DNA from: a virus
Reading direction: 5' to 3' (one strand)
IMG/VR virus record: IMGVR_UViG_3300037493_003172
Coordinates: 1 to 26,336 of that record
Length of the DNA: 26,336 bases
A model generated the notes under the pieces. That model was given only the letters and a program-made list of their open reading frames with translations. It was not told the origin of the DNA and did no database searches. Shown in pieces: positions 1 to 26,336 of this stretch. Numbering within the stretch: position 1 is the stretch's first letter; each line of letters begins with the position of its first letter. A program made the position numbers and the translations under genes.

Positions 1-12
1 GGGCAAAACATC

Positions 13-897
13 TTAGGCAAAGCTGATGGCTTCAGAGCTGCCGGAGCTGGCAGACTTCCAGGGCTTGAGCTGCTGGACTTCCTTTGGGTAACAAGGGAAG
101 CTGTTGAATTCCATTGCAGCTGCATAAGCTTCAATGGCCTGTTGCATCAGCACACCACCTTCAGCCTGAAGCTCAGCACTCACTTCATAGATAGCTGTGG
201 CTTGTGGGCTGGCCTTCTCTACGCAGACCATCCTAAAGCCCTTAGGCCGGAAGCCAAACACCTGTTTGAAAATCATACAATAAGCAGCAGCCTGGATGTG
301 ATAGCCCCTTTTGTAAGTGGTATTTAAGACATTCCTGGGTGTGATTAGCTCACCAAAAGTTTTCAGATCATAAATCCAGCCATCAGCTGTGACCATATCT
401 AGCTGTGCCTTGAGTGGCACTTTGCCATAATCACAGGTTAGGCACAGCTCAGTGGCCACCGGGATGATGCCCCAATGGGCAAGCTCTGCCTTGAGTGCCT
501 GGCCAGCCAGGACTGCATCCTGGTATTCATCCAAGGCCACCACCATCTTGCCCTGGCTGGCTGCTTCAAAGTTATCCCACCAAGCAATGGCTTCCAGAGT
601 CTCAGCCTTTGGCTTCTTGGCTTCCCTCTGTTTCTGGGTGGGCTTCTTAGGGGCATCCTCTGGGGTGCAGATCACAGAGGAAGTGAACAGCTCCGGCTGG
701 AGCACCAGCAGATGGGTAAGGCTTCCAATCCGCAGGGCAGGGCTGTCCTTATGGGGTGCATCCATTGATGCCTTCATATGGCCGGGTGAAATCAAGGCCA
801 TCTTGGCCAGGCTTTGATTGAGTGCCTTGTGGGCATCATAGTCAGCCCTAGTCCATTTGGCAGTGGGCAGTGCGTTGATCATTTCTTGTGTGAGCAT
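13..897 (-). CDS. RecE-like / PDDEXK exonuclease (phage recombination exonuclease)
   Basis: 294 residues. The C-terminal half carries the pattern of PDDEXK nucleases of the RecE/exodeoxyribonuclease VIII type (DUF3799-like): E150, D167 in the stretch QLDMV, the D-x-K core in YDLKT (176-180), and Q202 in YHIQAAAY. The N-terminal RIGSLTH stretch (about 56-62) fits the conserved G-x-x-x-H seen early in these proteins. Such enzymes chew back double-stranded ends to leave single strands for an annealing protein, and an ERF annealase lies 1.4 kb upstream in the same transcript, which supports the role. The start codon is preceded by ACCT and no Shine-Dalgarno. It is the last gene before the left window edge; its stop is complete. 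A RecB/Cas4-like nuclease of another subfamily is the main alternative. Family by motif reading; exact subfamily inferred. Confidence 0.82.
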   Translation of the reverse strand: MLTQEMINALPTAKWTRADYDAHKALNQSLAKMALISPGHMKASMDAPHKDSPALRIGSLTHLLVLQPELFTSSVICTPEDAPKKPTQKQREAKKPKAETLEAIAWWDNFEAASQGKMVVALDEYQDAVLAGQALKAELAHWGIIPVATELCLTCDYGKVPLKAQLDMVTADGWIYDLKTFGELITPRNVLNTTYKRGYHIQAAAYCMIFKQVFGFRPKGFRMVCVEKASPQATAIYEVSAELQAEGGVLMQQAIEAYAAAMEFNSFPCYPKEVQQLKPWKSASSGSSEAISFA

Positions 898-912
898 AGG
901 TGTGGGTGCGTT

Positions 913-1149
913 TTACTTTGTGGGTGTGTAGGGAAAGGCAATGAAGCTGGTGTTGGCCATCCGGCAGAAGGCCAGGGCATCAGCCTTGGTGTCAAAACGG
1001 ACAAGGCCACCTTCAAAGGAAAGAAAAGCTGGCTTGGGTTTCCGGCTGTCTTCTACCAGGATGAAGAAACGGTTTGTGCCCTGCTGATCCTGCCCTATCT
1101 CTGGGCTGTATGTGGGCAGTGGGTTTTTCTTATTTGTTTTTTCTGGCAT
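913..1149 (-). CDS. Small phage protein of unknown function, 78 aa
   Basis: 78 residues, not recognised. It overlaps the end of the upstream 101-residue gene by 20 bases and ends 15 bases before the exonuclease start, so it belongs to the same transcript. GGGAAG seven bases before the ATG is one of the few Shine-Dalgarno-like sequences in the window. The middle reads like a compact alpha/beta fold (FFILVEDS, then GGLVRFDTKADALAF); the last is like a strand followed by a helix. No transmembrane segment or metal-binding cysteines are visible. Position among recombination genes hints at an accessory role, but that is only context. Confidence 0.7.
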   Translation of the reverse strand: MPEKTNKKNPLPTYSPEIGQDQQGTNRFFILVEDSRKPKPAFLSFEGGLVRFDTKADALAFCRMANTSFIAFPYTPTK

Positions 1150-1435
1150 TGTATGCTTCCCGGTTTCTGTTGAACAGCTGGTGATTAAAACCCAGCTGGA
1201 TCAGTCTGTTGTCTCTTGCTTCCCTGGCTTTGGCAAGGTCAGAAGGCAGCTTTTCTTCAATGTGTTTTTTCTTGATGCGGACTCTCAGAAAAATCTTCTT
1301 ACCTTCAAACCTCAGATGGTGATTGTCTGGATCATCGGTGCAACCCTTAGCACCCCGGCCACATTCAAGCAGATAGGCAAGTGCTTTGGCTGACATACCC
1401 CAAGCAGCAGCCCTAGAAGATAGCTCTTCACTCAT
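1130..1435 (-). CDS. Small basic phage protein of unknown function, 101 aa
   Basis: 101 residues, not recognised. It is rich in Lys/Arg, with FEGKKIFLRVRIKKKHIEEK near residues 43-62, and probably binds nucleic acid, which is an inference from charge only. I take the ATG at 1435 as start because the 53-residue upstream gene ends with ATGAGTGA, overlapping this start by 8 bases, as expected for translational coupling; a TTG at 1453 would extend it by six residues. The N-terminal part (MSEELSSRAAAWGMSAKALAYLL) looks helical. The 3' end overlaps the next gene. Confidence 0.7.
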   Translation of the reverse strand: MSEELSSRAAAWGMSAKALAYLLECGRGAKGCTDDPDNHHLRFEGKKIFLRVRIKKKHIEEKLPSDLAKAREARDNRLIQLGFNHQLFNRNREAYNARKNK

Positions 1436-1589
1436 TGGCCTGGGCTTGCTCAAGCTTGGCCACCTTGTCAGTGAGTGCCTTGACCACTTGGGCAGTCTGC
1501 TTCTGGTGCTGGATAAGGTCTGCCACCACTTCAGCCAGCTGCCGGACAGCCTCAGCAGTGGTGATGGTGGGGTGTGTCTGGTTAATCAT
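1428..1589 (-). CDS. Small helical protein, 53 aa, coupled at both ends
   Basis: 53 residues, starting MINQTHPTITTAEAVRQLAE and ending KVAKLEQAQANE. The start shares an ATGA overlap with the stop of the upstream coiled-coil gene, and its own stop overlaps the start of the next gene (ATGAGTGA), so both neighbours support it as real despite its size. After residue 11 it is predicted to be one long amphipathic helix with heptad-like hydrophobics (V15, L18, V21/V22, L25, V34/V35, L39, V43, L46), so it may form a small coiled coil. Function not recognised. Confidence 0.72.
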   Translation of the reverse strand: MINQTHPTITTAEAVRQLAEVVADLIQHQKQTAQVVKALTDKVAKLEQAQANE

Positions 1590-2035: not shown

Positions 2036-2268
2036 TTCTTTTTGCCTTTCACTGCCTTGCGTAGCTGTCGGCCAGAAATGTCTAGGGTCTTACGGATGTG
2101 CCGGGGCTTCATCTTCTCAGTGAAGAAGAGCTGCCTGGCAATTTCCCGCAGTCCCCAAGTCAGCCAATTAAAGCCTGGCCTCTGGGCTTCCTTCTTCATT
2201 GGGGCAAGGTCAAGCCGGGGCACAGGCTTGCAGGGATTGAGCTTGGGATTGTGTCTGGGCTTGGCCAT
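2032..2268 (-). CDS. Small basic helix-turn-helix-like protein, 78 aa
   Basis: 78 residues, strongly basic. The C-terminal half (about 42-78) fits a helix-turn-helix: an ARQLFF helix, then KPRHIRKTLDISGRQLRKAV, where GRQLRKAV would be the recognition helix. It lies directly after the ERF gene (3-base gap) and overlaps the next start by ATGA. The N-terminal half is proline-rich and probably unstructured. It may regulate transcription or help DNA transactions; the HTH is read by eye and the role is inferred. The ATG is preceded by AACCT and no Shine-Dalgarno. Confidence 0.7.
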   Translation of the reverse strand: MAKPRHNPKLNPCKPVPRLDLAPMKKEAQRPGFNWLTWGLREIARQLFFTEKMKPRHIRKTLDISGRQLRKAVKGKKK

Positions 2269-2271
2269 AGG

Positions 2272-3024: not shown

Positions 3025-3047
3025 TGTGTGGGTGGGTGGAAAGGGGA

Positions 3048-3122: not shown

Positions 3123-3130
3123 AAGGTGGA

Positions 3131-3373: not shown

Positions 3374-3837
3374 TAAAGGGTGATGTTTGAATTGTGTTTG
3401 ATGTGCCAGCCCAGGATCAGCAGGGCATCTGCTGTCTTCAGGGTCAGGCCAGACACTGCTGGAAATCTCCGGCTGGCTTCTGCCTTCAAGGCTGACTTCC
3501 ATTGGCTCTGGGTCTTGTCACCTTTGGGGATGCCCAGGCCAGACTGCCAGACCTGGGGTGTGACCATAATAACAGGATGCTGTCTGCCCACACACCAGCC
3601 TTCCATCCATCCGGCAGACTTGCCAAGCTTGAAGGCTGCACTGCTGGGGATGAGTCTGCCCACAAAGGGTGGGACTTTCTCAATGGCCACTGTGCAGCCA
3701 TAGGGAATGATGTCAGCCAGCTCTGCCTGGTCTTCTGGCATAGGGTGCAGAGTGATCTGCCCATCCATCCAGAGTGCAATGCCACCACCCAAGCCTGGGT
3801 CAATGGCTGCATAAGATTTAGAAAGTGGATTGTCCAA
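3373..3837 (-). CDS. RuvC-like Holliday-junction resolvase (RNase H fold)
   Basis: 154 residues. The N-terminus AAIDPGLGGGIA (10-21) is the first strand of a RuvC/RNase H-fold nuclease with catalytic D13; E53 in TVAIEKV is the second acidic residue, and D137 in KTADALLI is the third, as in the AADAL motif of RuvC. Phage resolvases cut branched DNA so that concatemers can be packaged. The start must be upstream of D13; the only usable codon is TTG at 3837, preceded by ACCCT, an alternative start whose context resembles the CCT-ATG starts of neighbours. The stop overlaps the next ATG by one base. Family confident; specificity inferred. Confidence 0.85.
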   Translation of the reverse strand: MDNPLSKSYAAIDPGLGGGIALWMDGQITLHPMPEDQAELADIIPYGCTVAIEKVPPFVGRLIPSSAAFKLGKSAGWMEGWCVGRQHPVIMVTPQVWQSGLGIPKGDKTQSQWKSALKAEASRRFPAVSGLTLKTADALLILGWHIKHNSNITL

Positions 3838-3855
3838 AGGGTTTGTCTTGGTGAT

Positions 3856-5282: not shown

Positions 5283-6161
5283 TTATTTGTCCCACCTGAT
5301 ACACACCAGGGCAGGGTGTCTCATTGATCCAGAAGGGGTGAGCTGCTGGCAAATCACTTCAGCCACCTTCCCCACCCATTTCTCTGGGTGGTCATAGATG
5401 TCCTGCCTATTGGCATCAGTGAGGCCACCAGCCACAGCAATGGTCTTGCCTTGGTAGCAAACAAGCAGTGCCCCAGCTGCACCATCAAGCCTTCCCTTGC
5501 CAGGCTGGAAGCCCACCACCCGGCAGTCATAGGTCTGCCAGCCCTTGAGCTTAATCCAAGCCCTGCTGCGTTTGCCAGACAGATAGGGGGCATCCACATC
5601 CTTGACCATCAGCCCTTCCCATCCGGCTTCTAGGGCATCAGCCAAAAGGCTGTCAGCCATTTCCACCAGGTCAGCAGTGGTGATGATGTCCACCACTTGG
5701 ATCAGTGCCACCTTGGCTTCCTCAGCCTGGGTCAGCTCAGCCTTGCTGAACATAGTTTCAAGGCAATCCCTGCGGAGGGAATAAGGGACTTCACTGCTTG
5801 CACCCCAGCCATCCACCCAGGGCACATCAAACACAGTGAGCTTGGCCAGCTCAGTGGCCTCAGCCTTCTGGGTTAGGTGGCCAACACCACTGAAGAAGTC
5901 AGCCCCGGCTGTGGCCTCACAGTCAAGGGTGACTGCCTTGCCTACTGCGTCAGCCAGCTTGAGCACCACAGGGGTGAGCAAGGCAAGGCTTGGCAAGGGG
6001 TGACCATTCCTGGTCTGGTAGCTGACAGACTTGCTGACAGGATCAGCACTGACCAGCACCCTGATGCCATCCAGCTTTGGCTCTAGTGCCCACATCTTGT
6101 CACAGTGAAGCTTGCTTAGGTCAGCCAGAGCAGTGGCCAGCATTGGCTTGATTGAGTCCAT
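5283..6161 (-). CDS. ATP-dependent DNA ligase
   Basis: 292 residues, the usual size for compact phage ligases. Motif I is EPKLDGIR (27-34), with K29 the lysine that becomes adenylated; motif III region contains LDCEA (79-83); motif IV is EGLMVKD (182-188); motif V is WIKLKGW (202-208). The C-terminal part from about 210 fits the OB-fold domain (CRVVGFQPGKG). It seals nicks with ATP during phage replication and recombination. The start ATG is preceded by AAGCCCT and no Shine-Dalgarno. A small membrane peptide gene ends 5 bases upstream. No missing motif is visible, so the enzyme is probably active. Confidence 0.93.
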   Translation of the reverse strand: MDSIKPMLATALADLSKLHCDKMWALEPKLDGIRVLVSADPVSKSVSYQTRNGHPLPSLALLTPVVLKLADAVGKAVTLDCEATAGADFFSGVGHLTQKAEATELAKLTVFDVPWVDGWGASSEVPYSLRRDCLETMFSKAELTQAEEAKVALIQVVDIITTADLVEMADSLLADALEAGWEGLMVKDVDAPYLSGKRSRAWIKLKGWQTYDCRVVGFQPGKGRLDGAAGALLVCYQGKTIAVAGGLTDANRQDIYDHPEKWVGKVAEVICQQLTPSGSMRHPALVCIRWDK

Positions 6162-6166
6162 AGGGC

Positions 6167-6325
6167 TTAGGCTTTCCGGCTGGTGAGGCTGTTAAGAATG
6201 ACAGCCAAGATGATGATGCAGAGGAAGCCAGCACCAAGCAGAGCCATCCCCTTGATGGTGTTTGCTTGGGCTTCAGCCAAGGTGGTCTTGGCTGGCTGGG
6301 TGGTGTGGGTCTTGTGGGTTTTCAT
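6167..6325 (-). CDS. Small single-span membrane protein, 52 aa
   Basis: 52 residues, MKTHKTHTTQ at the start and NSLTSRKA at the end. Residues 27-46 (MALLGAGFLCIIILAVILNS) form one transmembrane helix. The N-terminal 25 residues are polar and the C-terminal tail is short and basic. It fills what would otherwise be a 185-base gap, ends 5 bases before the ligase start, and its ATG is preceded by AACCT like many neighbours. It might be an inner-membrane spanin subunit, holin or superinfection factor; the sequence does not decide. Confidence 0.68.
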   Translation of the reverse strand: MKTHKTHTTQPAKTTLAEAQANTIKGMALLGAGFLCIIILAVILNSLTSRKA

Positions 6326-6346
6326 AGGTTAAGAGATTGGTGGTGA

Positions 6347-6700
6347 TTAGCCCCAAAGGTTTAAGGTCTTATCCCAAGCACCCACAGGATTTCCCAAGGA
6401 TCGATTGAAAGTCCGGAGTGGTGGAGGAAGCCCCTTGTAAGTCTTAGCACCATCAGCAATCAGCTTCCAATAAGTCAGCTGTTCCTGGGTCTGCCTAACT
6501 TCCTTGACAGCATATTCCACAGCCTTGGTGTGCTCCTTTGTGTTAGGCTTATGTAGCTTAGCTAAGTCAAGGCAGGCTTCATCAGCTTCCAATGCAGCAG
6601 TGAGTCTAACCACCCAATAGGGTGCAACAAACTCAAGCTGGGCCGGAGTCCAAGTCTTCAGGTCTGCACGATTGGCAGGGGCAGTGGGCTTCATAGTCAT
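6347..6700 (-). CDS. Unknown phage protein, 117 aa; paralogue of the gene at 6932-7297
   Basis: 117 residues. It shares with the product of 6932-7297 an N-terminal KPTAPANRADLKTWT element, a hydrophobic FVAPYWVVRL stretch, a central Q-x-QLTYWKL and a C-terminal WDKTLNLWG, so the two arose by duplication. I chose the ATG at 6700 because it aligns with the start of the paralogue; a GTG at 6712 adds four residues. Function not recognised. Conserved tryptophans at both ends and variable middle sections suggest one compact fold with a diverged interior. Confidence 0.75.
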   Translation of the reverse strand: MTMKPTAPANRADLKTWTPAQLEFVAPYWVVRLTAALEADEACLDLAKLHKPNTKEHTKAVEYAVKEVRQTQEQLTYWKLIADGAKTYKGLPPPLRTFNRSLGNPVGAWDKTLNLWG

Positions 6701-6708
6701 TGGGTGGA

Positions 6709-6909
6709 TCACTTGGTGGTCTGCTTGGTGTAGTCCTTGGAGGCTTCAATGTTGAAGCCACCATTCTCAGTGACTGCACCTAGAAGGTCAGCCACTTTGC
6801 ACAATTCCTGGCCGATTGCATCAGGCACATTGCCTTGCAGGATGGCTTCCACAATCCTTTGGGAGTGCTTGAGCTGTTCCATCTTCTTGTCAGTCATTTG
6901 GATTTTCAT
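6709..6909 (-). CDS. Small helical phage protein, 66 aa
   Basis: 66 residues, mostly helical, charged at the start (MKIQMTDKKMEQLKHSQRIV). It lies between the two paralogous genes and ends 8 bases before the second of them. ATG is preceded by ACACCA. No motif recognised. It may have been part of the duplicated unit, since a comparably small gene (7318-7482) precedes the other paralogue, although the two small proteins do not look alike. Confidence 0.68.
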   Translation of the reverse strand: MKIQMTDKKMEQLKHSQRIVEAILQGNVPDAIGQELCKVADLLGAVTENGGFNIEASKDYTKQTTK

Positions 6910-6931
6910 TGGTGTTATGGTAGGAAAATGA

Positions 6932-7297
6932 TCAGCCCCAGAGTCCTAGGGATTTATCCCAATTGCCCACAGTGGTGTGCCTCTTGGCCGGAGTGCCACG
7001 GTGGGTGGCCACGCTGCCATTTCTGTGGTGAGTGCGGAGGGAATGAGGAAGCACCTTGAAGATGCGATCAGACAGGACAAGTTTCCAGAAGGTCAGCTGC
7101 TGCTGGGTCTTCTGCTGGAGCTTTAGGGCATCCAGCCGGAGCTGAGTGCCTTCTGGGGTGTAGGCCACCAAAGCCAAGTCAGACAGCTTCTGCTTCTCCA
7201 GCTTGGCCACCCAGAAGGGTGCAGCATAGGTCAGCTGATCAGCAGTCCAAGTCTTGAGATCAGTCCGGTCAGCAGGGGCAGTGGGCTTAGAGGTCAT
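6932..7297 (-). CDS. Unknown phage protein, 121 aa; paralogue of the gene at 6347-6700
   Basis: 121 residues. Start MTSKPTAPADRTDLKTWT and end NWDKSLGLWG match the neighbouring paralogue; QQQLTFWKL lies near the middle. Compared with the paralogue it is richer in His and Arg between about 85 and 108 (LRTHHRNGSVATHRGTPAKR). Function unknown. The ATG is preceded by CACACC. It is separated from the upstream 54-residue gene by 20 bases. Confidence 0.75.
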   Translation of the reverse strand: MTSKPTAPADRTDLKTWTADQLTYAAPFWVAKLEKQKLSDLALVAYTPEGTQLRLDALKLQQKTQQQLTFWKLVLSDRIFKVLPHSLRTHHRNGSVATHRGTPAKRHTTVGNWDKSLGLWG

Positions 7298-7317
7298 GGT
7301 GTGATGATCGTTTAAAA

Positions 7318-7482
7318 TTAAAGGCCAAGCAGCGTTTCAATTTCATTAACTACTTCAGACATCTTATCCCCATAAGGGATGCCATGATCAGCAGCTGCTT
7401 GCTTGATGGCTGATCTAGGTTCCAGGCCAAGCTCCATCAGATGGATAGAAGCCTCAGCAATAATGGTCAGTGCGTTTGTCAT
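7318..7482 (-). CDS. Small phage protein, 54 aa
   Basis: 54 residues, MTNALTIIAEASIHLMELGL at the start and NEIETLLGL at the end. It fills a 215-base gap, has a CACCTATG start context identical to that of the upstream 181-residue gene, and has normal codon use for the window. Predicted helical throughout, with acidic C-terminal half. The middle (SAIKQAAADHGIPYG) could be the turn of a small DNA-binding or protein-binding helical hairpin; not recognised. Confidence 0.68.
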   Translation of the reverse strand: MTNALTIIAEASIHLMELGLEPRSAIKQAAADHGIPYGDKMSEVVNEIETLLGL

Positions 7483-7512
7483 AGGTGTGAAGTTTTGTGG
7501 TGAGTGATAGTC

Positions 7513-8058
7513 TCAGACGCAGAAGTGAAAAGCAAGGGCTTCATCAGACATCCCATTGTAGATGGTGATGGTGCTTCCGTATTTGCCCACCATTGCTGCA
7601 ATGCCTCTAGTGACATTGGCCGATCCGCACTTGAGCAAACGGAAGCCAGCCTTGGGGTCTTCCCCGGCCTTGGTGAAGATTACATTCTCAACACAAGCCT
7701 TCTTCACCTTGTTCAAGGTCTTCTTATTGTGCTGCTTCTTGTCTTCAGCTTCCACAAGGATGTCCACAAGGTCATCAAACTTGAAACCATTTTCAGCTCT
7801 GAATTCCCAGCCCTTGATGTCACAAGGATTGATGGACTTGGCAAAGGCTTCAGCAAGTGCTTCATTCTCAAAACGCTTTGCACCTTCAAAGCGGACAAAG
7901 GTGCAACCACCGTGGCCTTCATTGCTGGCAGTGCCAATCACCTTACCATCCAGCAGGACGGTGGCAGTGAAGCAGATCGTTTCCTCAGACATCCACCGGA
8001 CAGTCTTGAAGGACTTGAGGGTGAGTTTGCTGAGCTGGGTGTGGGATGCGGTTGTCAT
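7513..8058 (-). CDS. Phage protein of unknown function, 181 aa, first gene of the left block
   Basis: 181 residues, not recognised. The N-terminal part has alternating strands (ETICFTATVLLDGKVIGTAS) followed by GHGGCTFVRFEG and a helix (ALAEAFAKSI), then a basic helical segment (EDKKQHNKKTLNKVKKA, about 105-121). This is an alpha/beta protein seen as a hypothetical in phage early regions. It is the first gene after the 300-base non-coding region and so probably the first translated gene of the DNA-metabolism transcript. The ATG is preceded by ACACACCT, with no Shine-Dalgarno. Confidence 0.75.
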   Translation of the reverse strand: MTTASHTQLSKLTLKSFKTVRWMSEETICFTATVLLDGKVIGTASNEGHGGCTFVRFEGAKRFENEALAEAFAKSINPCDIKGWEFRAENGFKFDDLVDILVEAEDKKQHNKKTLNKVKKACVENVIFTKAGEDPKAGFRLLKCGSANVTRGIAAMVGKYGSTITIYNGMSDEALAFHFCV

Positions 8059-8359
8059 AGGTGTGTGTGATTAGGTTTGGATTACTCACCCACCATCAGG
8101 CATCACACCCCACCTGTCAAACAATTATTTCAAACGATTGTTCCCCCACCTGTTGATCCTCCAGCCCAGCCTCACCCCCTGCCTTCCCTTCAGCCAGGCC
8201 AGCTTGGCCTCCCTCCACCCAGGACTGCCCACAGGATGCCCCTTCTTTACCCCTTCCCTGCCCTTCTGGGGCTTCTTTAGGGTGGGCTTGGCTCTTGGCC
8301 TGGGTCTGGGTGGCATAGGGGTCTAGAAGCCCAGCCAGCCAGCCACCCCCTAGCAAGCC
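8059..8359 (-). other. 300-base non-coding control region between late and DNA-metabolism genes
   Basis: No convincing gene is present. The part near 8108-8153 carries nested direct repeats (separate entry). From about 8155 to 8300 the plus strand is markedly pyrimidine-rich (C and T), so the transcribed minus strand is G/A-rich. A CAGC run occurs at about 8330-8344, and TAGGGG/CCCCTA at the region's right side could form a weak six-pair stem. It is the largest non-coding gap in the window and separates the lysis/structural block from the DNA-metabolism block, so promoter, operator or origin functions are all possible. Confidence 0.6.
8108..8153 (-). promoter_or_regulatory. Nested direct repeats, candidate operator/iteron and promoter
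   Basis: Ten bases CCCCACCTGT occur at 8108-8117 and again at 8144-8153. Between them, a 13-base unit TCAAACAATTATT (8117-8129) is followed immediately by TCAAACGATTGTT (8130-8142), 11 of 13 identical. AACAAT (8120-8125) and ATTGTT (8137-8142) also form a dyad. On the minus strand TTGACA (8120-8115) fits a -35 box, but the sequence 17 bases further on is a poor -10 box, so the promoter is uncertain. The repeats lie 50-95 bases upstream of the first gene of the left block, where a regulator-binding site is expected. Confidence 0.55.
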
Positions 8360-9367: not shown

Positions 9368-10113
9368 TTGGGCTGATCCTCAGGGCTGTGGTCTTGGATG
9401 GCCGGACATTCCACAGGCTTGGCAGTCATCTTCCTCCAAAGCATCACAGAGAATTCAAGGGCAATGACAGCCAGGGTGACACCCACCACCCAAGGGAAAT
9501 AAGATGAGTCAAACACCCAGGGCAGACTGACAGTGGCAATCCCACAAAGGATCACCAGGACTGCATTGAATTTGCCAATGCCAATGAAGTGGCCAAAGGC
9601 CATCAGCAGAGTGCCCACAGCTAGGATGCCAGCACCCACTAGGCTGAGCATTGTGCTGGCCTTGTCCTTCCTGGCTTGCTCCAGGGCAATGTGCTTGTCC
9701 GTCAGCTGCTGCTTCAGCTCTGCAATGTCCTTGGTGGCTTGAGCTTGCTGGGCTTCCATCTTAGCCCATAGGCTTTCTAGCTCAGCAGCCAGCTCCTTGC
9801 CCTTGGCCTGGGCATCTTGGAATTCCTTTGTGTCATTCTTGCTGATCCTCTGCCGGGACAGAGCCACTTCCTCAGGGGCAGGGGCAGGAAGAAAGGACTG
9901 TGCCACTTCCAATTCCTTATCAGCTCCGGCTGGGTTTGTGGGGATGGCTTCCCTGGCAGCTGTAATGCTGGCACTGATTTTCTGGTCAGCCTTGTCCTGC
10001 TTCTGTCCAAAGCTCTGGGTGACTTGTTCCCCTGGCTCTGGCTTAGGATCAGGGCTGGGCACTATGGACTTGGTGCACCCGGTCAGCAAGAGTGCCAGCA
10101 GTGCCAGACGCAT
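9364..10113 (-). CDS. Lipoprotein with coiled coil and three membrane spans (unimolecular-spanin-like)
   Basis: 249 residues from the ATG at 10113. Residues 1-13 (MRLALLALLLTGC) are a lipoprotein signal with lipobox LLTGC, so C13 would be acylated. A proline-rich periplasmic segment (19-30) is followed by a charged helical region (about 95-153, KGKELAAELESLWAKMEAQQ) that can form a coiled coil, and then by three hydrophobic segments at about 154-175, 181-202 and 206-226, with a short polar tail. A lipid anchor at one end and a membrane anchor at the other, joined by a coiled coil, is the design of unimolecular spanins, which fuse outer and inner membranes at lysis; known ones have a single C-terminal span. 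Its place directly before the holin supports a lysis role. Confidence 0.7.
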   Translation of the reverse strand: MRLALLALLLTGCTKSIVPSPDPKPEPGEQVTQSFGQKQDKADQKISASITAAREAIPTNPAGADKELEVAQSFLPAPAPEEVALSRQRISKNDTKEFQDAQAKGKELAAELESLWAKMEAQQAQATKDIAELKQQLTDKHIALEQARKDKASTMLSLVGAGILAVGTLLMAFGHFIGIGKFNAVLVILCGIATVSLPWVFDSSYFPWVVGVTLAVIALEFSVMLWRKMTAKPVECPAIQDHSPEDQPK

Positions 10114-10117
10114 TGGC

Positions 10118-10243
10118 TTATTTCTTGAGGCTGTCCAGGGTCTGCTTGGCCTTGGCTTCAAAGCCTTGGAGCTTGGCAGAATTCTTACGGAAGATAAGCA
10201 GCCCGCAGATTAGGCCAGCTAGGAAGGTGAGGATGTAGGTCAT
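10118..10243 (-). CDS. Small single-span membrane peptide, 41 aa
   Basis: 41 residues: MTYILTFLAGLICGLLIFRK at the start, then a charged helical tail ending TLDSLKK. Residues 3-18 form a transmembrane helix with a positive flank (RK). It lies between the tail fibre gene and the lipoprotein gene, with 4 bases to the lipoprotein ATG, and its own ATG is preceded by TTTCCT. An N-terminal anchor with a cytoplasmic or periplasmic helix resembles the inner-membrane subunit of a spanin pair or a small lysis regulator; function inferred from place only. Confidence 0.68.
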   Translation of the reverse strand: MTYILTFLAGLICGLLIFRKNSAKLQGFEAKAKQTLDSLKK

Positions 10244-10262
10244 AGGAAATTAGATTAACATT

Positions 10263-12395
10263 TTATGGGGATGTGTAGCGTGCTGGGACTTTGAATGAAG
10301 TGCCATTTGCTTGGATTTCTATTTCAATAGGATAGTCACTGCTGTGAAGGTTTCCGCTAAAAGGTGAGTTTCCCACTCCACCAATGTCATAAAGATAATT
10401 GCCACTCTGGAAATAGAAAGCAGACCCAGAGCCAGCCAAGCACTTGATGTTAGAGGCCACAATGTTTCCACCCACTGTAAGGGCTTCAGTCAAGGCAATT
10501 GCAGATGGGTCAATCTGGATGCCCACCTTGCCTGAGTTATCAATAATTGTGGCAGATGTGTCTGGAGTAGTTTCATCCTCAATGCGGATGGCAAAGCCTG
10601 TGCCCTTCTGAGTAATCCGCAGACCAGGGGTGCTGGCAGTGGTGTCAATGACCTGGGGTGATCCAAACACATTGCTTGCATTTGTTGCAGCTCCATAAAC
10701 CAGCGTTCCATTGGCGGTCTTGTAAGCCATTTGCCAAGTGCCAATCCACACATCCCCGGCCACTGAGTTAGTCAGGTTAGCAGTGGAATTGATGCTGCCA
10801 ATGTTAAGGCCAGCATTTGTGCTGGTAGGGGAAAGGGTGTTCACCTTCCCGGTGAATGTTGCACCAGCAAGAAGTGCGTAAGGTGTTAGGTTTGGGGTGG
10901 TCGCAGCTGTGCCCTGGGTTGTTCCATCAGGGAAAGTGATCCCACCACCATTTGTGGCCAAGACAAACTTGCCATCAAAGGGTGTGAATTTGTGCAGATA
11001 ATGTGTGCCAGCTCCTGTGTCATTGTAAGAGTCAATAACCAGATCAGTGTTCAGCAAATTCCTGATTGAAGGTGTGTAGACTGTGCCGGAGAATGAAGCA
11101 CCAGACAAAGCAGCCTTGGCATCCAATGCAGTCTGAAGACCTGTGACAGTGCTGATGGCCTGGGTGTGGCTTGTGTTGGCCTTGAGTGCCAAGGCTGTGT
11201 CCACCTGGGTGGTGGAATAGACATTAAGATTTGTCCTGGCTGTGCCCACCACAGGCAGATCAGAAAGATTATTGGACAGCCGGAGATAACGGCCATCAGC
11301 AGTGGTCTGGGAAATGGGTGTTTCCAACACCAATGGTTCAATGGCAGCTTCATCCACCACTGAGCTTTTAAGGGTGCAGGGGATTTGCAGGACAGTCAAA
11401 GGCTTGCTGTCAGAAGTCACTTCCACTTCCAGGGTGGTTTCAAAAGACTCTGCCCCATCAAGCAAGCTGATGGCTTCAGCTGTGTTCAGGTTTAGCTCAC
11501 CCTTGTAACCCTTAAAGGATAGAAGGCCAGAGCCATTGGCTGTCAGCCCAAGAGTGCCAGGCTGATCAGTCACAGTGATGTCATAAGCATAAGCACCCAC
11601 TTGCTGGACTGTCACCTTGTCATCTAAGGCATTGGCATCCAGGGCATTTTGGACTTCAAGGGCAGTAGCTCCAACAGCAATTGTCTTGGTGCTGACATCT
11701 ACCCCAGCCAGAGAGTCAAAGGCCAGGGTGAATGTGCCACCTTTGGGATCAGGGGAAATGCTCACCCGATAGGTGGCTCTAGTGCTATCCCAGGCAGACA
11801 GTGCTGTGACCGTAATTGCACAGGAAGAAACCTGGGTAAAGCTGTTGGCAAAAGCAGCCACAGTCTGCTGAAGGTGCACCAGGGTAATCTGGGGATGTGT
11901 GCTGTCACCCACTTGAAGGGGGCTAATTCCCGCAGTAGAAAGAGGGATCAGGCCGGAGCTGTCAGCAGTGATGTCAGTCCTTGCCCCATTGTTATTGAAG
12001 GCAATGCTGTAATTGTCACCCACCTTTGAAACCACCACACCACCAGCAGAAGTGATGCTGGCAAGGGCATTGAGTGCAGTCTGCACCACAGTAGCTGTGG
12101 CATTAAAAGCTAAGGCAGATGTGACATCACCACCAAAAGAAAGCCGGAAAGTGCCGGATGTGGGGCTGGCATCAATCTCACCTACTGCCACCTTGATGGC
12201 CAAGCCAACAGGATAATCCACTTCCTGCCTAGGGTAGCTGGCAACATTGGTATCCTGCACCAGATAGACTTCCACCTGTGCTTTATCACCCAGGAAAAGG
12301 CTTGGCTTGGTAACCTGGGAAGAGCCATTAAAGCTTGAATAAGCCACCCCTAGGGATGGTTCAATGAACAGTTTAAGGGATGTAGGCAGTGGCAT
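10263..12395 (-). CDS. Tail fibre / receptor-binding protein
   Basis: 710 residues, the largest gene here. The N-terminal 75 residues probably attach it to the tail. Two homologous repeats follow: about 80-155 (GTFRLSFGGDVTSALAFNAT, with NATATVVQTALNAL) and about 219-292 (GTFTLAFDSLAG, with GATALEVQNALDA), each ending in a tyrosine-containing strand and a T-x-D segment. Residues 368-391 (DGRYLRLSNNLSDL, then TARTNLNV) are a known phage fibre motif. ITFPDGTTQGTAA (486-498) is the loop that usually precedes a fibre tip, and the rest is beta-rich with GTGFAIRIEDE. It would recognise the host surface. Tandem GTF repeats are common in large surface proteins. The ATG is preceded by GCTCCT. Confidence 0.82.
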   Translation of the reverse strand: MPLPTSLKLFIEPSLGVAYSSFNGSSQVTKPSLFLGDKAQVEVYLVQDTNVASYPRQEVDYPVGLAIKVAVGEIDASPTSGTFRLSFGGDVTSALAFNATATVVQTALNALASITSAGGVVVSKVGDNYSIAFNNNGARTDITADSSGLIPLSTAGISPLQVGDSTHPQITLVHLQQTVAAFANSFTQVSSCAITVTALSAWDSTRATYRVSISPDPKGGTFTLAFDSLAGVDVSTKTIAVGATALEVQNALDANALDDKVTVQQVGAYAYDITVTDQPGTLGLTANGSGLLSFKGYKGELNLNTAEAISLLDGAESFETTLEVEVTSDSKPLTVLQIPCTLKSSVVDEAAIEPLVLETPISQTTADGRYLRLSNNLSDLPVVGTARTNLNVYSTTQVDTALALKANTSHTQAISTVTGLQTALDAKAALSGASFSGTVYTPSIRNLLNTDLVIDSYNDTGAGTHYLHKFTPFDGKFVLATNGGGITFPDGTTQGTAATTPNLTPYALLAGATFTGKVNTLSPTSTNAGLNIGSINSTANLTNSVAGDVWIGTWQMAYKTANGTLVYGAATNASNVFGSPQVIDTTASTPGLRITQKGTGFAIRIEDETTPDTSATIIDNSGKVGIQIDPSAIALTEALTVGGNIVASNIKCLAGSGSAFYFQSGNYLYDIGGVGNSPFSGNLHSSDYPIEIEIQANGTSFKVPARYTSP

Positions 12396-12428
12396 AGGAG
12401 CTTCTTAATTATGCTTAAAGGTCAAAGG

Positions 12429-14250: not shown

Positions 14251-15645
14251 TCAGGCAATAGATTGTTTTGTGAAGTCCACTGATGTGGGTGCTTCCGGCA
14301 GTGTCTTGAGATTAAGTCTCTCAAGCTCCACTAGGATTTTGGCTTGGATGTCCAGGGTTTCCTTCTGGTAGTCCACAGGTGAAAATGCTTCCCCTGAGAT
14401 AGCACCACCAATTTCCCTGAGGCTGGAAAGAGTCAGCTTCTCTGGGGTCTTCCTAGCCTTCTCTTCTGCGTCTAGGGCTTTGCCCAGCTCATCCTTATCC
14501 TTCTTGGCTTTATCATCAGCAGCCTTCTTGGCTTCATCTGCTTCCTTCTGAGATGCCTTTGCTGCATCATCCTTAGACTTCTCTCCGGCCTTTCTTTTGT
14601 CTTCTTCAGCCTTTTTGGCATCCTTCTCAGCCTGGGTCATTGCTTCTTCAATGGCTTTGTCAGCACGATCCTGGGCTTCTTTTTCAGCAGCTAAAGCTTC
14701 AGCAGCCACAATGATCTCATTGGCCTTGGCCTCATTGGCAATGCGTAGTCTTTCCTTTTCAGCAGCTGCCCTGGCTTTTAGAATACGCATAACCTCATCT
14801 TGCACATCCTTCATCCCTGCAATGGTTTCTGTTCCAAGCACCACAGCTGCACCACCAGCATTGGCAGCCCTGGCAGCTTCAGCTTGCTTCCTGGCAATAA
14901 TTTTTTGACCTTCTGGGTCAGATGTAAGAAATTCTTTTGCAGCTTCCTGCTTTGCAATCTGAGCCTCTTCCCTATTCTTGGTCTGCTTCTCCTTAATCTT
15001 CTTCTGCCGGATCAGCTCAGCCTCTTCCTTGCTGATGCCAGCTTCTTCACCAAAGCCACCAGCCAAGTCCATTGCAGCCTTGAGCTGAGGAAGTAAATCC
15101 TTTGCAAGAGTTTCACCCAGGACTGCTGTGGCAATCTTCATTGCAGTGGTGTCATCCTTAGCCCCAAGCATAGCAGCCCCAAGCTTCTCAATGACATCCA
15201 TTGGCTGCACCAATCCATTGGCAATGTCATCAGCTGCAAAGCCCAGGACTTCCAGCATCTTGGCTGTGTCATTGCCACCACCCACAGCCCCGGCCAAGAG
15301 CTTCTGAATTTCTGTGTAAGCCTTGCCCACTTTATCAATGGACATCCCGGCTGCGTCAGCTGCACTGCTTAGCTTTTGATAAACTTCTACAGACACACCT
15401 AGATCAGTGGCCTTATTGCTCAGCTCTGCTGTGTTATCAATGGCTTCCTGAACCTTCTTCTTATGCTCTTCAATGGCATCACCAATGGCACTGAAGGCCA
15501 TCTGTGCCAGGGCAAGTGGAGCTGCAAAACCTAAGGCCATCTTGGCCAGGTCACTGCCAAAATTCTTCAGCTTCTTTTGGACTGTTTCAACAGCCCTTGA
15601 AGCCTGATCCTTGGCTGAGATTGTAAATTCTAGATCATTGGCCAT
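14251..15645 (-). CDS. Tail tape measure protein
   Basis: 464 residues, starting MANDLEFTISAKDQASRAVE, the usual opening of tape measure proteins. One hydrophobic segment lies at about 36-56 (KMALGFAAPLALAQMAFSAI). LGVSVEVYQKLSSAADAAGM is a common tape-measure element. From about 215 to 400 the protein is almost all Ala, Glu, Lys and Asp in long helices (DKAIEEAMTQAEKDAKK). It sets tail length and is injected with the genome. At about 1.5 angstrom per residue the length predicts a tail near 70 nm, short for a siphophage. The start overlaps the previous gene by 11 bases. No frameshift is needed. Confidence 0.85.
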   Translation of the reverse strand: MANDLEFTISAKDQASRAVETVQKKLKNFGSDLAKMALGFAAPLALAQMAFSAIGDAIEEHKKKVQEAIDNTAELSNKATDLGVSVEVYQKLSSAADAAGMSIDKVGKAYTEIQKLLAGAVGGGNDTAKMLEVLGFAADDIANGLVQPMDVIEKLGAAMLGAKDDTTAMKIATAVLGETLAKDLLPQLKAAMDLAGGFGEEAGISKEEAELIRQKKIKEKQTKNREEAQIAKQEAAKEFLTSDPEGQKIIARKQAEAARAANAGGAAVVLGTETIAGMKDVQDEVMRILKARAAAEKERLRIANEAKANEIIVAAEALAAEKEAQDRADKAIEEAMTQAEKDAKKAEEDKRKAGEKSKDDAAKASQKEADEAKKAADDKAKKDKDELGKALDAEEKARKTPEKLTLSSLREIGGAISGEAFSPVDYQKETLDIQAKILVELERLNLKTLPEAPTSVDFTKQSIA

Positions 15646-16201
15646 TGGTGTCTTGTGCTCTTAATTTTGCCATTTCGTCAATCAGTGCCTCATCATCAGT
15701 GGTCAGAATTTCAATCTTAGCCCCAGCATTTATGCTGAAGACTGCGGAAAGCCAGATGGCCTTGGCCTCTGGCATTGTCAAAGCCTCTGCATAACCAATC
15801 CCATTAGAAACAAGATTGGCCACCACTGTCAGCTGCCAGGGGACTTGGGCTGATCCATAGCTCTTTCTGTCAGTCCTTTCCCAGAATTGGGGATAATTGC
15901 TTTGGGTGTCTGTGTGCCGGACAAAAGCCAGAGCAGCCCTTTTCAAATAATCCTTTGACACTTGCAGCCGGAAACCAAGCCAGATGTCAGCCAGGGTGGG
16001 TGTCCCAATGGCCTCATCACTGCAAATCTTCAGAGCAATCACCAGGTCTTGTGGTGTGATCTCCTGGCCATCCTTGGTTAAAGGGCTGTTAATCCCTTCC
16101 AAGAAAAGTCTGTGCTTCAAGCAGAAAGGCTTGAGCTTCCGGCCACACACAGTGGTGCTGGCAGGGGTTAGGAAAGCATTGATGAAACGCTGGTCAGCCA
16201 T
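15635..16201 (-). CDS. Tail assembly chaperone-position protein, 188 aa
   Basis: 188 residues, between the presumed tail tube gene and the tape measure, the position of the tail assembly chaperone in lambda-like phages. Mostly helical, with PFCLKHRLFLEGINSPL near the N-terminus and TTDDEALIDEMAKLRAQDT at the end. No family is recognised. I saw no need for a programmed frameshift product because the frame is continuous, and there is no second open frame that would be fused to it. The stop overlaps the tape measure start. Confidence 0.6.
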   Translation of the reverse strand: MADQRFINAFLTPASTTVCGRKLKPFCLKHRLFLEGINSPLTKDGQEITPQDLVIALKICSDEAIGTPTLADIWLGFRLQVSKDYLKRAALAFVRHTDTQSNYPQFWERTDRKSYGSAQVPWQLTVVANLVSNGIGYAEALTMPEAKAIWLSAVFSINAGAKIEILTTDDEALIDEMAKLRAQDTNGQ

Positions 16202-16243: not shown

Positions 16244-16585
16244 TTAGGCAATGCCTTCAAAGTCCACAGCTGTGATGGAGATACGCATAAAACCTTTTGC
16301 TTCCCCACGCTCTTCGATGGCTGTGATGTGTCCAGAGAAAGCAATGCCATTGCCTGTGAAGGTTAGGTCACTGCCAATCGTGCCTGAGTAGGCAGTGGGG
16401 ACAAGACCTTCAACAGTCAGGGAAGTGCGTTCATCAGAATAACGGACACCAATGACCACACCTGCGGAATTGGTAACCTCATCAGCATTTGCCCAGGACT
16501 TGCCCACTGTGTAGCTCTGGACAGTCAAACCTGTCACAGTGCCATTGATGCCATAAATGTGGGCTGTGCCCTTAGTGGTTGCCAT
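16244..16585 (-). CDS. Tail tube protein (probable)
   Basis: 113 residues. Almost entirely beta strands: YGINGTVTGLTVQSYTV, then VVIGVRYSDERTSLTVEGLV, and ITAIEERGEAKGFMRISITAV at the end, with a helix only around SWANADEVTNSAG. This size and pattern match small tail tube proteins that stack as hexamers around the tape measure. The position, after the tail terminator and before the chaperone-position gene, agrees. Identity is by fold pattern and place, not by a named motif. Confidence 0.62.
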   Translation of the reverse strand: MATTKGTAHIYGINGTVTGLTVQSYTVGKSWANADEVTNSAGVVIGVRYSDERTSLTVEGLVPTAYSGTIGSDLTFTGNGIAFSGHITAIEERGEAKGFMRISITAVDFEGIA

Positions 16586-16617
16586 TGGTTTTGGGTATCT
16601 TAATTATGCACCCCAAG

Positions 16618-18484: not shown

Positions 18485-19357
18485 TCAGGCAGAGCAGACA
18501 CGCTTCCCGCTGGAAGCCCTGCCAACACCACATCCAAAACGGACTGTGGCCGTAAGACGCACAATGCCATCAGTGCCCTGAGACTTGAGCACCTGGACAG
18601 AAAGACCAGAGGCATCAACAGCAGAGGAAACTTCACCGGGGAACATAGACGCATTGGGCAGAGCCATTGCCACGCAGATGGCATCCTGGCCAAGGGCAGC
18701 TGCTGAAAGTCCTTCAGAATTTGTCGGAAGGTCTGTGAATTCAAACACCTGGAAACCGCCCACCTGGCCGATCAGGCCGGAGCGAACAAGGGAAGCATCA
18801 CCATTGCCAAAGGGTGTGACCAAGGTGGCATCCTTACGGAGAGCACCAGCATAGGTGCTATTCACAAGAAGGGCACGATTGTCAGAAGCCTTGGCAACAT
18901 TAAGGTCAGTGTTCAGATCAACAATCTGGCCATAATTGAAATTGGCAGCAGTGATGACTTCACCAGCAGAATAATTGGCAACAGTGAAGAGAGCACCAAT
19001 TTCACTGTGAACCTTCTTCACCAGCTGGCTGATGGCTTCCGGGACGAAAGCATTGACCAGGTAGGCTTCACCATATTCAGCAAGCTCTGTGGGATCGAAA
19101 TCCTTAGTGCTGTGAAGGTGCTTCAGGGTGACAGTCTTGGCTGTGATGTTGGCCGCATCAGACTCTGTGTAACCACCATTGGCCTTGGAAAATTCCTTGG
19201 CTTCACCACCAGAGATCAGGCTGACTTGCATCGTCTTGCCAACAGCTGTGGGTGTGAGGTTAGTGGAGAAAGCGGAAAGGACAGCCAGACGGCCACGGAG
19301 GCCAGCCAGCACCTGTTCAGCAAGGACTGCCGGAGCAGCTGCGATTGTGTTAGACAT
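18485..19357 (-). CDS. Major capsid protein
   Basis: 290 residues. It follows the scaffold gene and precedes the terminator, and the sequence is that of a coat protein: N-terminal helical arm (AAPAVLAEQVLAGLRGRL), GKTMQVSLISGG, LKHLHSTKDFDPTELAEYG (a typical E-loop/P-domain stretch), then NRALLVNSTYAGALRKD and a beta-rich C-terminal region. An HK97-type fold is assumed from context and length. It assembles the procapsid with the scaffold and the S49 protease. The ATG is preceded by ACCTAAAACCT. Its C-terminus has three cysteines (FGCGV, RVCSA), unusual for a coat protein and possibly stabilising. The exact subfamily is not recognised. Confidence 0.82.
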   Translation of the reverse strand: MSNTIAAAPAVLAEQVLAGLRGRLAVLSAFSTNLTPTAVGKTMQVSLISGGEAKEFSKANGGYTESDAANITAKTVTLKHLHSTKDFDPTELAEYGEAYLVNAFVPEAISQLVKKVHSEIGALFTVANYSAGEVITAANFNYGQIVDLNTDLNVAKASDNRALLVNSTYAGALRKDATLVTPFGNGDASLVRSGLIGQVGGFQVFEFTDLPTNSEGLSAAALGQDAICVAMALPNASMFPGEVSSAVDASGLSVQVLKSQGTDGIVRLTATVRFGCGVGRASSGKRVCSA

Positions 19358-19387
19358 AGGTTTTAGGTATTAGGGATTAAGAAAAAA

Positions 19388-22475: not shown

Positions 22476-22503
22476 TCTAAAGATTGCAACGGAAGTCAAT
22501 TGG

Positions 22504-22575: not shown

Positions 22576-22607
22576 TTGAGGGAAATGTGCCCAGCCCAAG
22601 TGCGTTG

Positions 22608-24446: not shown

Positions 24447-24937
24447 CAAGCAGACAGATGGTGCAACTTCTTTAAAGTGGCCAGCCGGAAATGAGTGACA
24501 GGCTTCATCCCACAAAATCCATTTCTGATCCTGATATTCTTTCTTTCAAGGCTGTGCCTTTCAGCCATCTGGAACACAGCAGACCTACTGACATTGGCCA
24601 GCTTGCAGAAGTCAGTGGCACTGATCCAGCCCCTGGGGACTGCATCTTGGCCAATGATCCTTGAAGCCAGCATCACTTCATCAAAGCTCTTTAAAGGTTT
24701 CTTAGGCTGATAGACAAAAGCCCAAGACCTTTTCCCATCAATGGCTTTCACCTGGTAGCTTGTCCGGCAGAGCAGTCCCTTGTCATAGAGACACTTGGCC
24801 TTGGTGCTGGTGCTTGAGTAATTGAGGAAGCCAAGCTTTGCCTGGATGTCCCTGATGGTCAGCCAGCCCTTAGGGGCAGCTGCCTTGTCTTGCTTCCTGT
24901 GCTCAATGAGCTGCTTGGCAAGTTTGGCCAGGGTCAT
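24446..24937 (-). CDS. Winged-helix-like DNA-binding protein, 163 aa, between terminase genes
   Basis: 163 residues. Two similar HTH-type segments are visible: PKGWLTIRDIQAKLGF with STKAKCLYDKGLL (about 22-56), and PRGWISATDFCKLANVSRSA with VFQMAERHSL (about 101-130), suggesting an internal duplication of a winged helix. KRSWAFVY (about 69-76) would be the wing. It overlaps the metallophosphoesterase gene by ATGA and the large terminase by one base. Such a protein could bind packaging DNA or regulate the late transcript. Lambda has no gene here. Not recognised as a named family. Confidence 0.7.
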   Translation of the reverse strand: MTLAKLAKQLIEHRKQDKAAAPKGWLTIRDIQAKLGFLNYSSTSTKAKCLYDKGLLCRTSYQVKAIDGKRSWAFVYQPKKPLKSFDEVMLASRIIGQDAVPRGWISATDFCKLANVSRSAVFQMAERHSLERKNIRIRNGFCGMKPVTHFRLATLKKLHHLSA

Positions 24938-25692
24938 TTGCTTGGGTCATAAAGTTTCAGGTCTGTCTGAAAGACCCACTTCCTTCCCACCTTGTGGATC
25001 AAGGTGACCTTCCAATCCTTGCCATCAATCCACCCGGCTGCAAAGCCACTACCCCACATTGCACTGCCCAGCCTGTGGCTGGCATAGGTCATTGCCTCTT
25101 TCTGGCAGAGACATCCGGCTGAGTAAGCTGCACCACCACCCCACTTCCTGAGTGCTACCATTTCAAGTCTGTGAATATGGCCACACACAAACCCACCACC
25201 CCTTTGGGCATAGTGAGCACCTTGCTCCTGCACAGCTCTGGCACTGTGACTGTAACCGTGAGCAAAGGCCACCTTGCCCAATTCAAACACTCCCAAGTCT
25301 GCGTGATATGGAAGCACCTTGGTGCAGCCAATCTTCCTGGCTTCTCTCATCAGCTCATCCTTAATGCCCTGGCAATAATCCACTTCCTTGGCATCCCCGG
25401 AAGACTCAATGGTGTGATCAAGTCTGGCCTCGTGATTTCCCCACAGCCACACATCCGGGGAAAACTTACGGAGGAATTTCACCCCTTCTTGCAAGTCTTC
25501 CTTCAGACTCTCATTGGCTTCCTTGTCCTTGGCCTGGCTTCTGAGACTGCGTAAATCAAAGCAGTCACCTAGGTGAATACGGACATCCGGCTTGAATTGC
25601 TTACAGTATTCAAGCAGTGCGGACACAGCTTCAGGATCGTGCCTGTCACCGTGATTGTCACCACAGGCCACCCATTTGATGATCTTGCTCAT
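24934..25692 (-). CDS. Calcineurin-like metallophosphoesterase
   Basis: 252 residues. All metal-binding motifs of the family are present: GDNHGD (11-16, the D-x-H motif), LGDCFD (41-46, GD-x-x-D), GNHEAR (85-90, GNHE), FAHGY (143-147) and GHIH (171-174). Such enzymes hydrolyse phosphoesters or act as DNA nucleases (SbcD, YfcE-like). A role in DNA end processing or signalling is not decidable here. It lies between small and large terminase genes, coupled to both sides by ATGA overlaps, so it is made together with packaging proteins. Not part of the lambda order. Family certain, substrate unknown. Confidence 0.9.
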   Translation of the reverse strand: MSKIIKWVACGDNHGDRHDPEAVSALLEYCKQFKPDVRIHLGDCFDLRSLRSQAKDKEANESLKEDLQEGVKFLRKFSPDVWLWGNHEARLDHTIESSGDAKEVDYCQGIKDELMREARKIGCTKVLPYHADLGVFELGKVAFAHGYSHSARAVQEQGAHYAQRGGGFVCGHIHRLEMVALRKWGGGAAYSAGCLCQKEAMTYASHRLGSAMWGSGFAAGWIDGKDWKVTLIHKVGRKWVFQTDLKLYDPSK

Positions 25693-26261
25693 AAGGTCTT
25701 AGATGAAAGCTCTGCCCTTGCTTGCAGTGTCCACTTCTCCAGGGCTTTGATTGCAGTTTCCGGCCTGTCAGGATTGCAAGCCTCAGCACAGTCCAGGGGA
25801 AGTTTGTCTAATCTCTGCACCACCTTGGCAGTCCACCTGGTGATAATCTCCTGGGCTTCAGTTAATTTTATGTAAGCCCTGGCCTCAATTGCTCTAGTCT
25901 TCTCCTCATCCTCTAGCTGCACTAGAGTCCTGAGGCTGGAATTATAGGCTGACTGAAGCTTACTTTGGGCAGGATCGTTTTGCTCAATGGCAGCTGCATA
26001 GACTTCTCTGGCTCTGTCCACCAGGTGTCTGTGCTGTGCCAGGGCATAACTGAGAGTGCCAGCAGTCAGCCCTTCCACTCCGGCAGGGGCATTGACCTGA
26101 GGGGATGGCTTTACAGGTGGAAGCTTCCTGTGCCTTCCGGCCTTACGCAGATCAAGCCAGGCTTTGGCCTCTGGCATTGTCTTAGGCAAACCTTCCTGAC
26201 GCAGCTTGGCCACATAACCTTTTGAAAGCCCAAGTGCCTTGGCCAGCTCTGCCTGGGTCAT
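25689..26261 (-). CDS. Terminase small subunit (Nu1-like)
   Basis: 190 residues. The N-terminal MTQAELAKALGLSKGYVAKL (1-20) with QEGLPKTMPEAKAWLDL is the Nu1-type winged HTH that recognises packaging DNA. A basic Pro-rich linker (40-58) leads to a helical region (about 66-150, LAQHRHLVDRAREVYAAAIE and LQSAYNSSLRTLVQLEDEEK) for oligomerisation and contact with the large subunit. Its place before the large terminase agrees. The ATG overlaps the upstream stop (ATGA) and is preceded by GGGGGTAAG, a purine-rich sequence that is stronger than at most genes here. Confidence 0.85.
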   Translation of the reverse strand: MTQAELAKALGLSKGYVAKLRQEGLPKTMPEAKAWLDLRKAGRHRKLPPVKPSPQVNAPAGVEGLTAGTLSYALAQHRHLVDRAREVYAAAIEQNDPAQSKLQSAYNSSLRTLVQLEDEEKTRAIEARAYIKLTEAQEIITRWTAKVVQRLDKLPLDCAEACNPDRPETAIKALEKWTLQARAELSSKTL

Positions 26262-26336
26262 AGCTTACCCCCTGGGATGCCTTCCAATCCAGCTGACTTC
26301 AAATCCTTGCGTTTTTGGACGGTGGTGGATGCCCCA
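26258..26336 (-). CDS. 3' end of an upstream gene cut by the window edge
   Basis: 25 codons before a TGA that overlaps the terminase start (ATGA), read GASTTVQKRKDLKSAGLEGI and then PGGKL. Its start lies beyond the window, unless the window closes into a circle, in which case ATG TTT TGC CC at 11-1 continues in frame and gives a 29-residue peptide. Basic and short; no function assigned. Confidence 0.5.
   Translation of the reverse strand, partial: GASTTVQKRKDLKSAGLEGIPGGKL

Follow-up and report, generated by a model that had tools for sequence, protein, structure and literature searches.

How does a bacteriophage start translation when Shine–Dalgarno (SD) words are scarce in front of its genes, and what is meant by the two cytosines that stand just upstream of a part of its start codons? 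The question is raised by a viral contig of 26,336 bases (IMG/VR record IMGVR_UViG_3300037493_003172; this whole stretch is called the window below), which represents 26 kb of a small tailed lake phage whose recognisable genes all lie on the minus strand. The initial annotation of the window had listed starts in a CC(T/A)-ATG context and proposed initiation that does not rely on 16S rRNA pairing, together with a sequence motif touching the start codon; the letters given for the listed starts were all confirmed on minus-strand reading. The explanation that we favour, at a probability of about 0.78, is that the phage would initiate translation as its host does, independently of SD and on open leaders poor in G, imitating the CC-ATG context of the host in a form shifted by avoidance of the word CATG.

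Conservation-Defined Starts and the CC Pair

Sequences of the type CCN-ATG are common on the minus strand of the window, where 68 of 527 ATGs have CC at -3/-2; chance occurrence is thus not negligible, and for this reason starts were defined by conservation and not by eye. About 90 related viral loci were retrieved via terminase, capsid, ligase, and exonuclease searches. Orthologue families were aligned over all loci, and the start was taken as the most upstream conserved column of start codons, with conservation dropping before it. This procedure yielded 465 unique starts from 36 gene families. One automated pick, ATG 3741 as the start of the resolvase gene, was rejected in favour of TTG 3837, as it would remove the upstream RuvC motif AIDPGLGGG.

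In the window, CC occupies -3/-2 at 10 of 23 conservation-defined starts versus 58 of 504 other ATGs (Fisher p = 2e-4); when the mis-called ATG 3741 is left out, the count is 9 of 22. Across the phage family, 30% of ATG starts have the pair (in the 465-start set, C is at -2 in 51% and at -3 in 47%); among control ATGs, the share is 5% for internal in-frame and 14% for off-frame ones. With 15 nt or more between the start and the preceding gene, the pair reaches 36%. Starts with such gaps also have C in 45% at -17 and A in 37–45% at -15 to -13. The excess is positional, since the frequency of CC is 0.29 at -3/-2 and on average 0.106 at -20 to -5 of the same leaders, a 2.7-fold difference. A bootstrap over families placed the difference between -3/-2 and elsewhere at 0.09–0.28 (95%), excluding zero, and a strict 22-family set gave 0.296 and 0.104, respectively. 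A logo of the starts had been suggested as a check. In the logo of the 465 starts, neither of the two outcomes named in advance as contrary to the proposal, a lack of CC excess over background and a purine-rich motif at -8, was seen.

Avoidance of CATG and the Base at Position -1

The letter between CC and the start codon has another origin. CATG is counted 4 times over the two strands of the window together, versus 243 expected. A C placed before ATG makes CATG, a word that the phage excludes, and C at -1 is therefore blocked. In 13 relatives that tolerate CATG (mostly at about half of expectation), 14 of 45 starts have C at -1, in contrast to 0 of 407 in CATG-avoiding relatives (p = 1e-15). 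Orthologous starts display the swap directly, as ACACACCC-ATG versus ACACACCT-ATG. Because the CATG-tolerant relatives carry C there, the T or A at -1 is a consequence of word avoidance rather than a recognition letter. Thus, the idea of a motif touching the start codon stands in part: the enrichment of CC at -3/-2 is real and positional, while the adjoining (T/A) is a by-product of CATG avoidance.

A different reason for T at -1 should be weighed here. Extended pairing of this base with A37 of the initiator tRNA has been proposed for E. coli, and selection for it would agree with the 49–61% T at -1 in the phages. This account is nevertheless quite unlikely for the present family, as T falls to 36% and C reaches 31% in the CATG-tolerant relatives, and the sampled Opitutaceae genomes favour C at the same position.

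Word avoidance in these phages is extreme and varies by clade (window and loci L002–L092): GTAC is absent nearly everywhere, and CATG, ACGT, GCGC, GATC, or CCGG is absent depending on the clade. The window is also without GTAC, ACGT, GCGC, and several six-base palindromes, and its CpG stands at 0.17 of expectation. Within the phage family, at about 70% capsid identity, CpG spans 0.16–1.26 of expectation.

Initiation Without Shine–Dalgarno Pairing

SD 4-mers are present in 33 of 465 leaders (7%); shuffling within the leaders gives 26, and random 15-mers contain them at a rate of 8.8%. They are thus at the level of chance. G is depleted upstream of the starts (11% over -12 to -1), where A and C abound, with a preference for A at -6 and -5 that reaches 46–53% at -6. 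Folding is weak at the starts: a 50-nt window there has a mean of -6.4 kcal/mol, and windows displaced by 60 nt to the two sides have -10.4 and -12.7 (p < 1e-15). Judged from these leaders, it is well supported that the phage mRNAs would start translation without SD pairing, in agreement with what the initial annotation had put forward. Its comparison with Bacteroidota fits poorly: A at -3, which belongs to the Kozak-like context of Flavobacterium, is not enriched in the phage family (27% versus 25% background), and the evidence favours hosts among Verrucomicrobiota.

Messenger RNAs may also lack SD sequences when they are leaderless, in which case CC(T/A) would belong to the promoter or the transcription start. 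The literature considers leaderless genes as one origin of the biases found upstream of SD-less genes (PMC5397173, PMC3160421). This is, however, very improbable for the phage family, whose genes are tightly packed on a single strand, with overlaps in 72 of 465 starts and gaps shorter than 15 nt in 135 of 465. A -10-like TANNNT peak upstream of the starts was not found at a usable size, its maximum being 5.8% at one offset.

Evidence for the Host Phylum

Among 50,697 phage records, the only match of the capsid protein was P8625, a phage of marine Verrucomicrobiota, which shares gene order with the phage family at 22–30% identity. Of 388 Verrucomicrobiota genomes, 10 hold a capsid homologue; 294 Planctomycetota and 301 Chloroflexota genomes gave no such hit. 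Four prophage regions of Verrucomicrobiota (L355–L358) have the order TerL, portal, ClpP-like protease, with 30–35% identity in TerL and 35–40% in the portal protein, and three of them also contain a capsid match. A fifth region (L341, in genome G170) is weaker, at about 24% identity, and region L359 gave no match on comparison with the phage, nor did a capsid-alignment scan of genome contigs.

The word GTAC provides a second line of evidence. It is absent from every locus of the phage family but one, which has 2 sites, and from P8625. In bacterial genomes, it was counted as the pattern SSGTACSS with the reversed pattern as control, and it proved nearly absent in 4 of 46 Verrucomicrobiota genomes (1–8 sites versus 1401–3215 for the control), the other 42 having GTAC. 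One of the four, G170, also carries a related prophage. On these sequence comparisons, the host phylum is very probably Verrucomicrobiota.

Such a near-loss of one word across an entire chromosome is remarkable in its own right. SSGTACSS is found 7 times in G029, 8 times in G016, twice in G012, and once in G170, and 200 kb of G029 contain 0 GTAC versus 456 expected. The loci of these GTAC-poor genomes are L257–L266 and L220 (G029), L297–L301 and L234 (G016), L345–L354 and L210 (G012), and L335–L344 (G170).

Several other markers were set aside. The tRNA-Thr gene was dropped as a host tag, since it varies too much among relatives; matches of the exonuclease and ligase in phage records stay below 60% identity and come from many hosts, giving no host signal; and phages from a wide range of hosts match the terminase at about 22% identity. 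Pfam scans of accessory genes revealed no host-specific gene. A cyanobacterial host, first considered for the known C context of that group, was dropped on the capsid, prophage, and GTAC evidence; cyanobacterial genomes were outside the sample.

The broader alternative, that the host belongs to Bacteroidota or Cyanobacteria and the phage copies their SD-less initiation, has in its favour that both groups include SD-scarce members and show C signals before starts (PMC5397173, PMC6847099, PMC10783764). It appears improbable, given that the A at -3 typical of Flavobacterium is not enriched, that P8625 alone matches the capsid in the phage records, and that close syntenic prophages occur in Verrucomicrobiota.

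Start Context in Verrucomicrobiota Genomes

In two Opitutaceae genomes (G029 and G016) and one of Spartobacteria (G012), SD words are near background (8–14%), whereas the control genomes LP2A and Leptolinea have them at 44–48% of starts. In the same three genomes, G makes up 12–17% over -12 to -1, C is found at -1 in 50–65% and at -2 in 40–59%, and CC within -3 to -1 precedes 33–44% of starts versus 11–13% of internal ATGs. Starts in ribosomal operons are in broad agreement with these values. Other sampled members of the phylum likewise have start regions that are SD-less and poor in G, with C at -2 and -1.

In three further genomes of the phylum, two SD-less (G005, G028) and one SD-using (G007), the 16S tails carry CACCTCCTTT, and the anti-SD itself is therefore kept. 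The gene for bS21, a protein that together with bS18 and bS6 occludes the anti-SD in the Bacteroidota system, was found in all genomes checked. An extended SD at rpsU is absent from most of the SD-less Verrucomicrobiota genomes checked and was seen in two. In the Lake Tanganyika Verrucomicrobiota G005 and G019 (L323, L324), rpsU has a TTG start behind AAGGACGTGA and AAGGAAGTGA, respectively. Each comes close to complementing the 16S tail in full, and the two genomes otherwise lack SD; this resembles the rpsU autoregulation of Bacteroidota.

Possible Role of the CC Pair

In the favoured explanation, the phage would copy the initiation context of its host, and 30S subunits would load on open, unfolded mRNA. 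The CC-ATG of the host would become CC(T/A)-ATG in the phage, with CC lying one base further out under the ban on CATG. Several observations weigh against this explanation or narrow it. About two thirds of the conservation-defined starts are without CC. The pair precedes only 13–16% of starts in the CpG-rich phage clade, where either pyrimidine stands at -3/-2 and A at -6 reaches 79%, while CpG-poor clades have it at 27–33%. In G170, which lacks GTAC and carries the related prophage, G is depleted and the C excess is only weak. Host starts came from a simple gene caller, restricted to unambiguous ATGs, with 22–65 starts per genome. Finally, start context alone cannot name the host, because C signals have also been reported in Cyanobacteria and Bacteroidetes (PMC5397173).

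All phage clades retain the G depletion, even that in which CC is not in excess. What the clades have in common is an A-rich stretch followed by two pyrimidines with little G, and CC prevails in those closest to the window. The pair may be contacted by the ribosome, or it may merely keep or mark the leader open; both are compatible with the sequences. Caution about its role is advisable because CC is weaker in the CpG-rich clade and in G170.

It could even be that CC has no role of its own and that selection acts only for unfolded leaders low in G, with C and A taking the places from which G and, at -1, C are barred. The most general features observed are indeed G depletion and weak folding, and the former persists where the CC excess does not. 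This reading is nonetheless rather unlikely, since CC is 2.7-fold commoner at -3/-2 than elsewhere in the same leaders, and C also peaks at the start codon in the sampled Verrucomicrobiota genomes. A bolder and speculative proposal, which we regard as doubtful, is that the 30S subunit of Verrucomicrobiota would take two adjacent C (or pyrimidine) residues around the E-site codon as a positive signal for initiation, even when the pair is shifted by one base. CATG-avoiding phages would then represent natural mutagenesis, in which the pair is kept by moving to -3/-2.

Individual Starts and Gene Content of the Window

The starts of the window are collected in Table 1. Among the entries of the initial list, those at 6909, 7482, and 8058 are without a homologue in the set, and those at 2268 and 7297 do not fall on precisely the same codon in relatives.

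Table 1. Start contexts in the window, with the genes that follow them and their conservation among related loci.
Context	Position	Strand	Gene or open reading frame (ORF)	Observations
CCT-ATG	895..900	-	exonuclease VIII-like gene 13-897	start position common to 21/21 homologous loci; phrog_412, E 1.3e-45
CCT-ATG	2266..2271	-	78-aa gene 2032-2268	same context CCTAACCT-ATG in relative L005; alignment ambiguous by two codons
CCT-TTG	3835..3840	-	RuvC-like resolvase gene 3373-3837	phrog_1770, E 1.3e-16; TTG in 9/12 loci; keeps RuvC motif AIDPGLGGG
CCT-ATG	6159..6164	-	ATP-dependent DNA ligase gene 5283-6161	10/10 loci; phrog_114, E 6e-62
CCT-ATG	6323..6328	-	52-aa ORF 6167-6325	9/9 loci, every one <90% identity
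CCA-ATG	6698..6703	-	gene 6347-6700	conservation-defined start, absent from the initial annotation
CCA-ATG	6907..6912	-	ORF 6709-6909	letters confirmed; putative start; no homologue in the set
CC-ATG (ACCATG)	7295..7300	-	gene 6932-7297	rare CATG of the window; letters confirmed; starts of homologues not at precisely this codon
CCT-ATG	7480..7485	-	ORF 7318-7482	letters confirmed; putative start; no homologue in the set
CCT-ATG	8056..8061	-	ORF 7513-8058	letters confirmed; putative start; no homologue in the set
CCT-ATG	8314..8319	-	gene 8125-8316	conservation-defined start, absent from the initial annotation
CCA-ATG	10111..10116	-	gene 9364-10113	12/20 loci; family of 11 starts
CCT-ATG	10241..10246	-	41-aa ORF 10118-10243	15/20 loci; CCT in nearly all
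CCT-ATG	12393..12398	-	710-aa tail protein gene 10263-12395	33/33 loci
CCA-ATG	15643..15648	-	tape-measure gene 14251-15645	50/51 loci
CCA-ATG	16583..16588	-	gene 16244-16585	exact codon in 20/55 loci; family start column 97% start codons
CCT-ATG	19355..19360	-	major capsid protein gene 18485-19357	37/56 loci; family of 35 starts

The minus strand encodes the small terminase, a phosphoesterase, the large terminase, portal protein, ClpP-like protease, capsid, tape measure, and tail proteins, and further a holin-like protein, DNA ligase, a methyltransferase in two ORFs, the RuvC-like resolvase, an Erf annealing protein, exonuclease VIII, and tRNA-Thr. The DNA methyltransferase (phrog_757) is split between the ORFs 4278-4586 and 4596-4910, a stop dividing its N-terminal from its C-terminal half; CCA-ATG precedes the second half. 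The tRNA-Thr(TGT) gene at 3048-3122 overlaps the longest Erf frame (2272-3108), and ATG 3024 is therefore the likelier Erf start. A divergent tRNA-Thr is present in several relatives.

Relation to Known Systems and Significance

The Kozak-like initiation of Flavobacterium johnsoniae and other Bacteroidota (PMC6847099, PMC9976891) has in common with the present case the scarcity of SD words, a retained anti-SD in 16S rRNA, weak folding, and A around -6/-5. It differs in that A at -3 is unenriched here and CC stands at -3/-2 instead, and in that the extended SD of rpsU is missing from most SD-less Verrucomicrobiota checked, though seen in two. C signals directly upstream of non-SD starts have been described in Chlorobi, Deinococcus-Thermus, Bacteroidetes, Cyanobacteria, and some Proteobacteria, a class for which C and A signals near -15 and U near -25 are also given (PMC5397173). 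The phage family shares with that class the C beside the start codon and the lack of SD, having C at -2 and -3 with C at -1 blocked by CATG avoidance. Verrucomicrobiota are not named in that work, and the present case concerns a phage family in which the C pair is displaced by CATG avoidance. SD-scarce Verrucomicrobiota, namely Akkermansia and IMCC26134, were reported to have few SD interactions although their 16S rRNA keeps CCUCC (PMC10783764); that paper scores mRNA–16S pairing, and the CC-ATG context in the phylum and its phage copy are added here.

Phage P8625 (PMC4642752) shares the order of TerL, portal, capsid, and tail genes, the lack of GTAC, and rare SD 4-mers (7 of 52 starts). Apart from the low protein identity, it differs in its start context, with A at -3 and a pyrimidine at -2, and it does not avoid CATG (147 occurrences). 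Cyanophages imitate the SD usage of their hosts (PMC6847405). In both cases phage starts track host initiation, but there SD use is copied, and here the absence of SD together with a C-rich context. As far as found, the C-rich context in Verrucomicrobiota, its copy in a phage family, and its displacement by CATG avoidance are new.

These observations link two pressures rarely seen on the same bases, translation initiation and the avoidance of words resembling restriction sites. They also have a practical side, since start positions in phages and hosts of this kind may be set wrongly by gene finders that expect SD sequences. An uncultured and apparently widespread phage family gains a host prediction, and a C-rich, SD-less start context is indicated for Verrucomicrobiota, an environmentally important phylum for which little literature on the subject was found.

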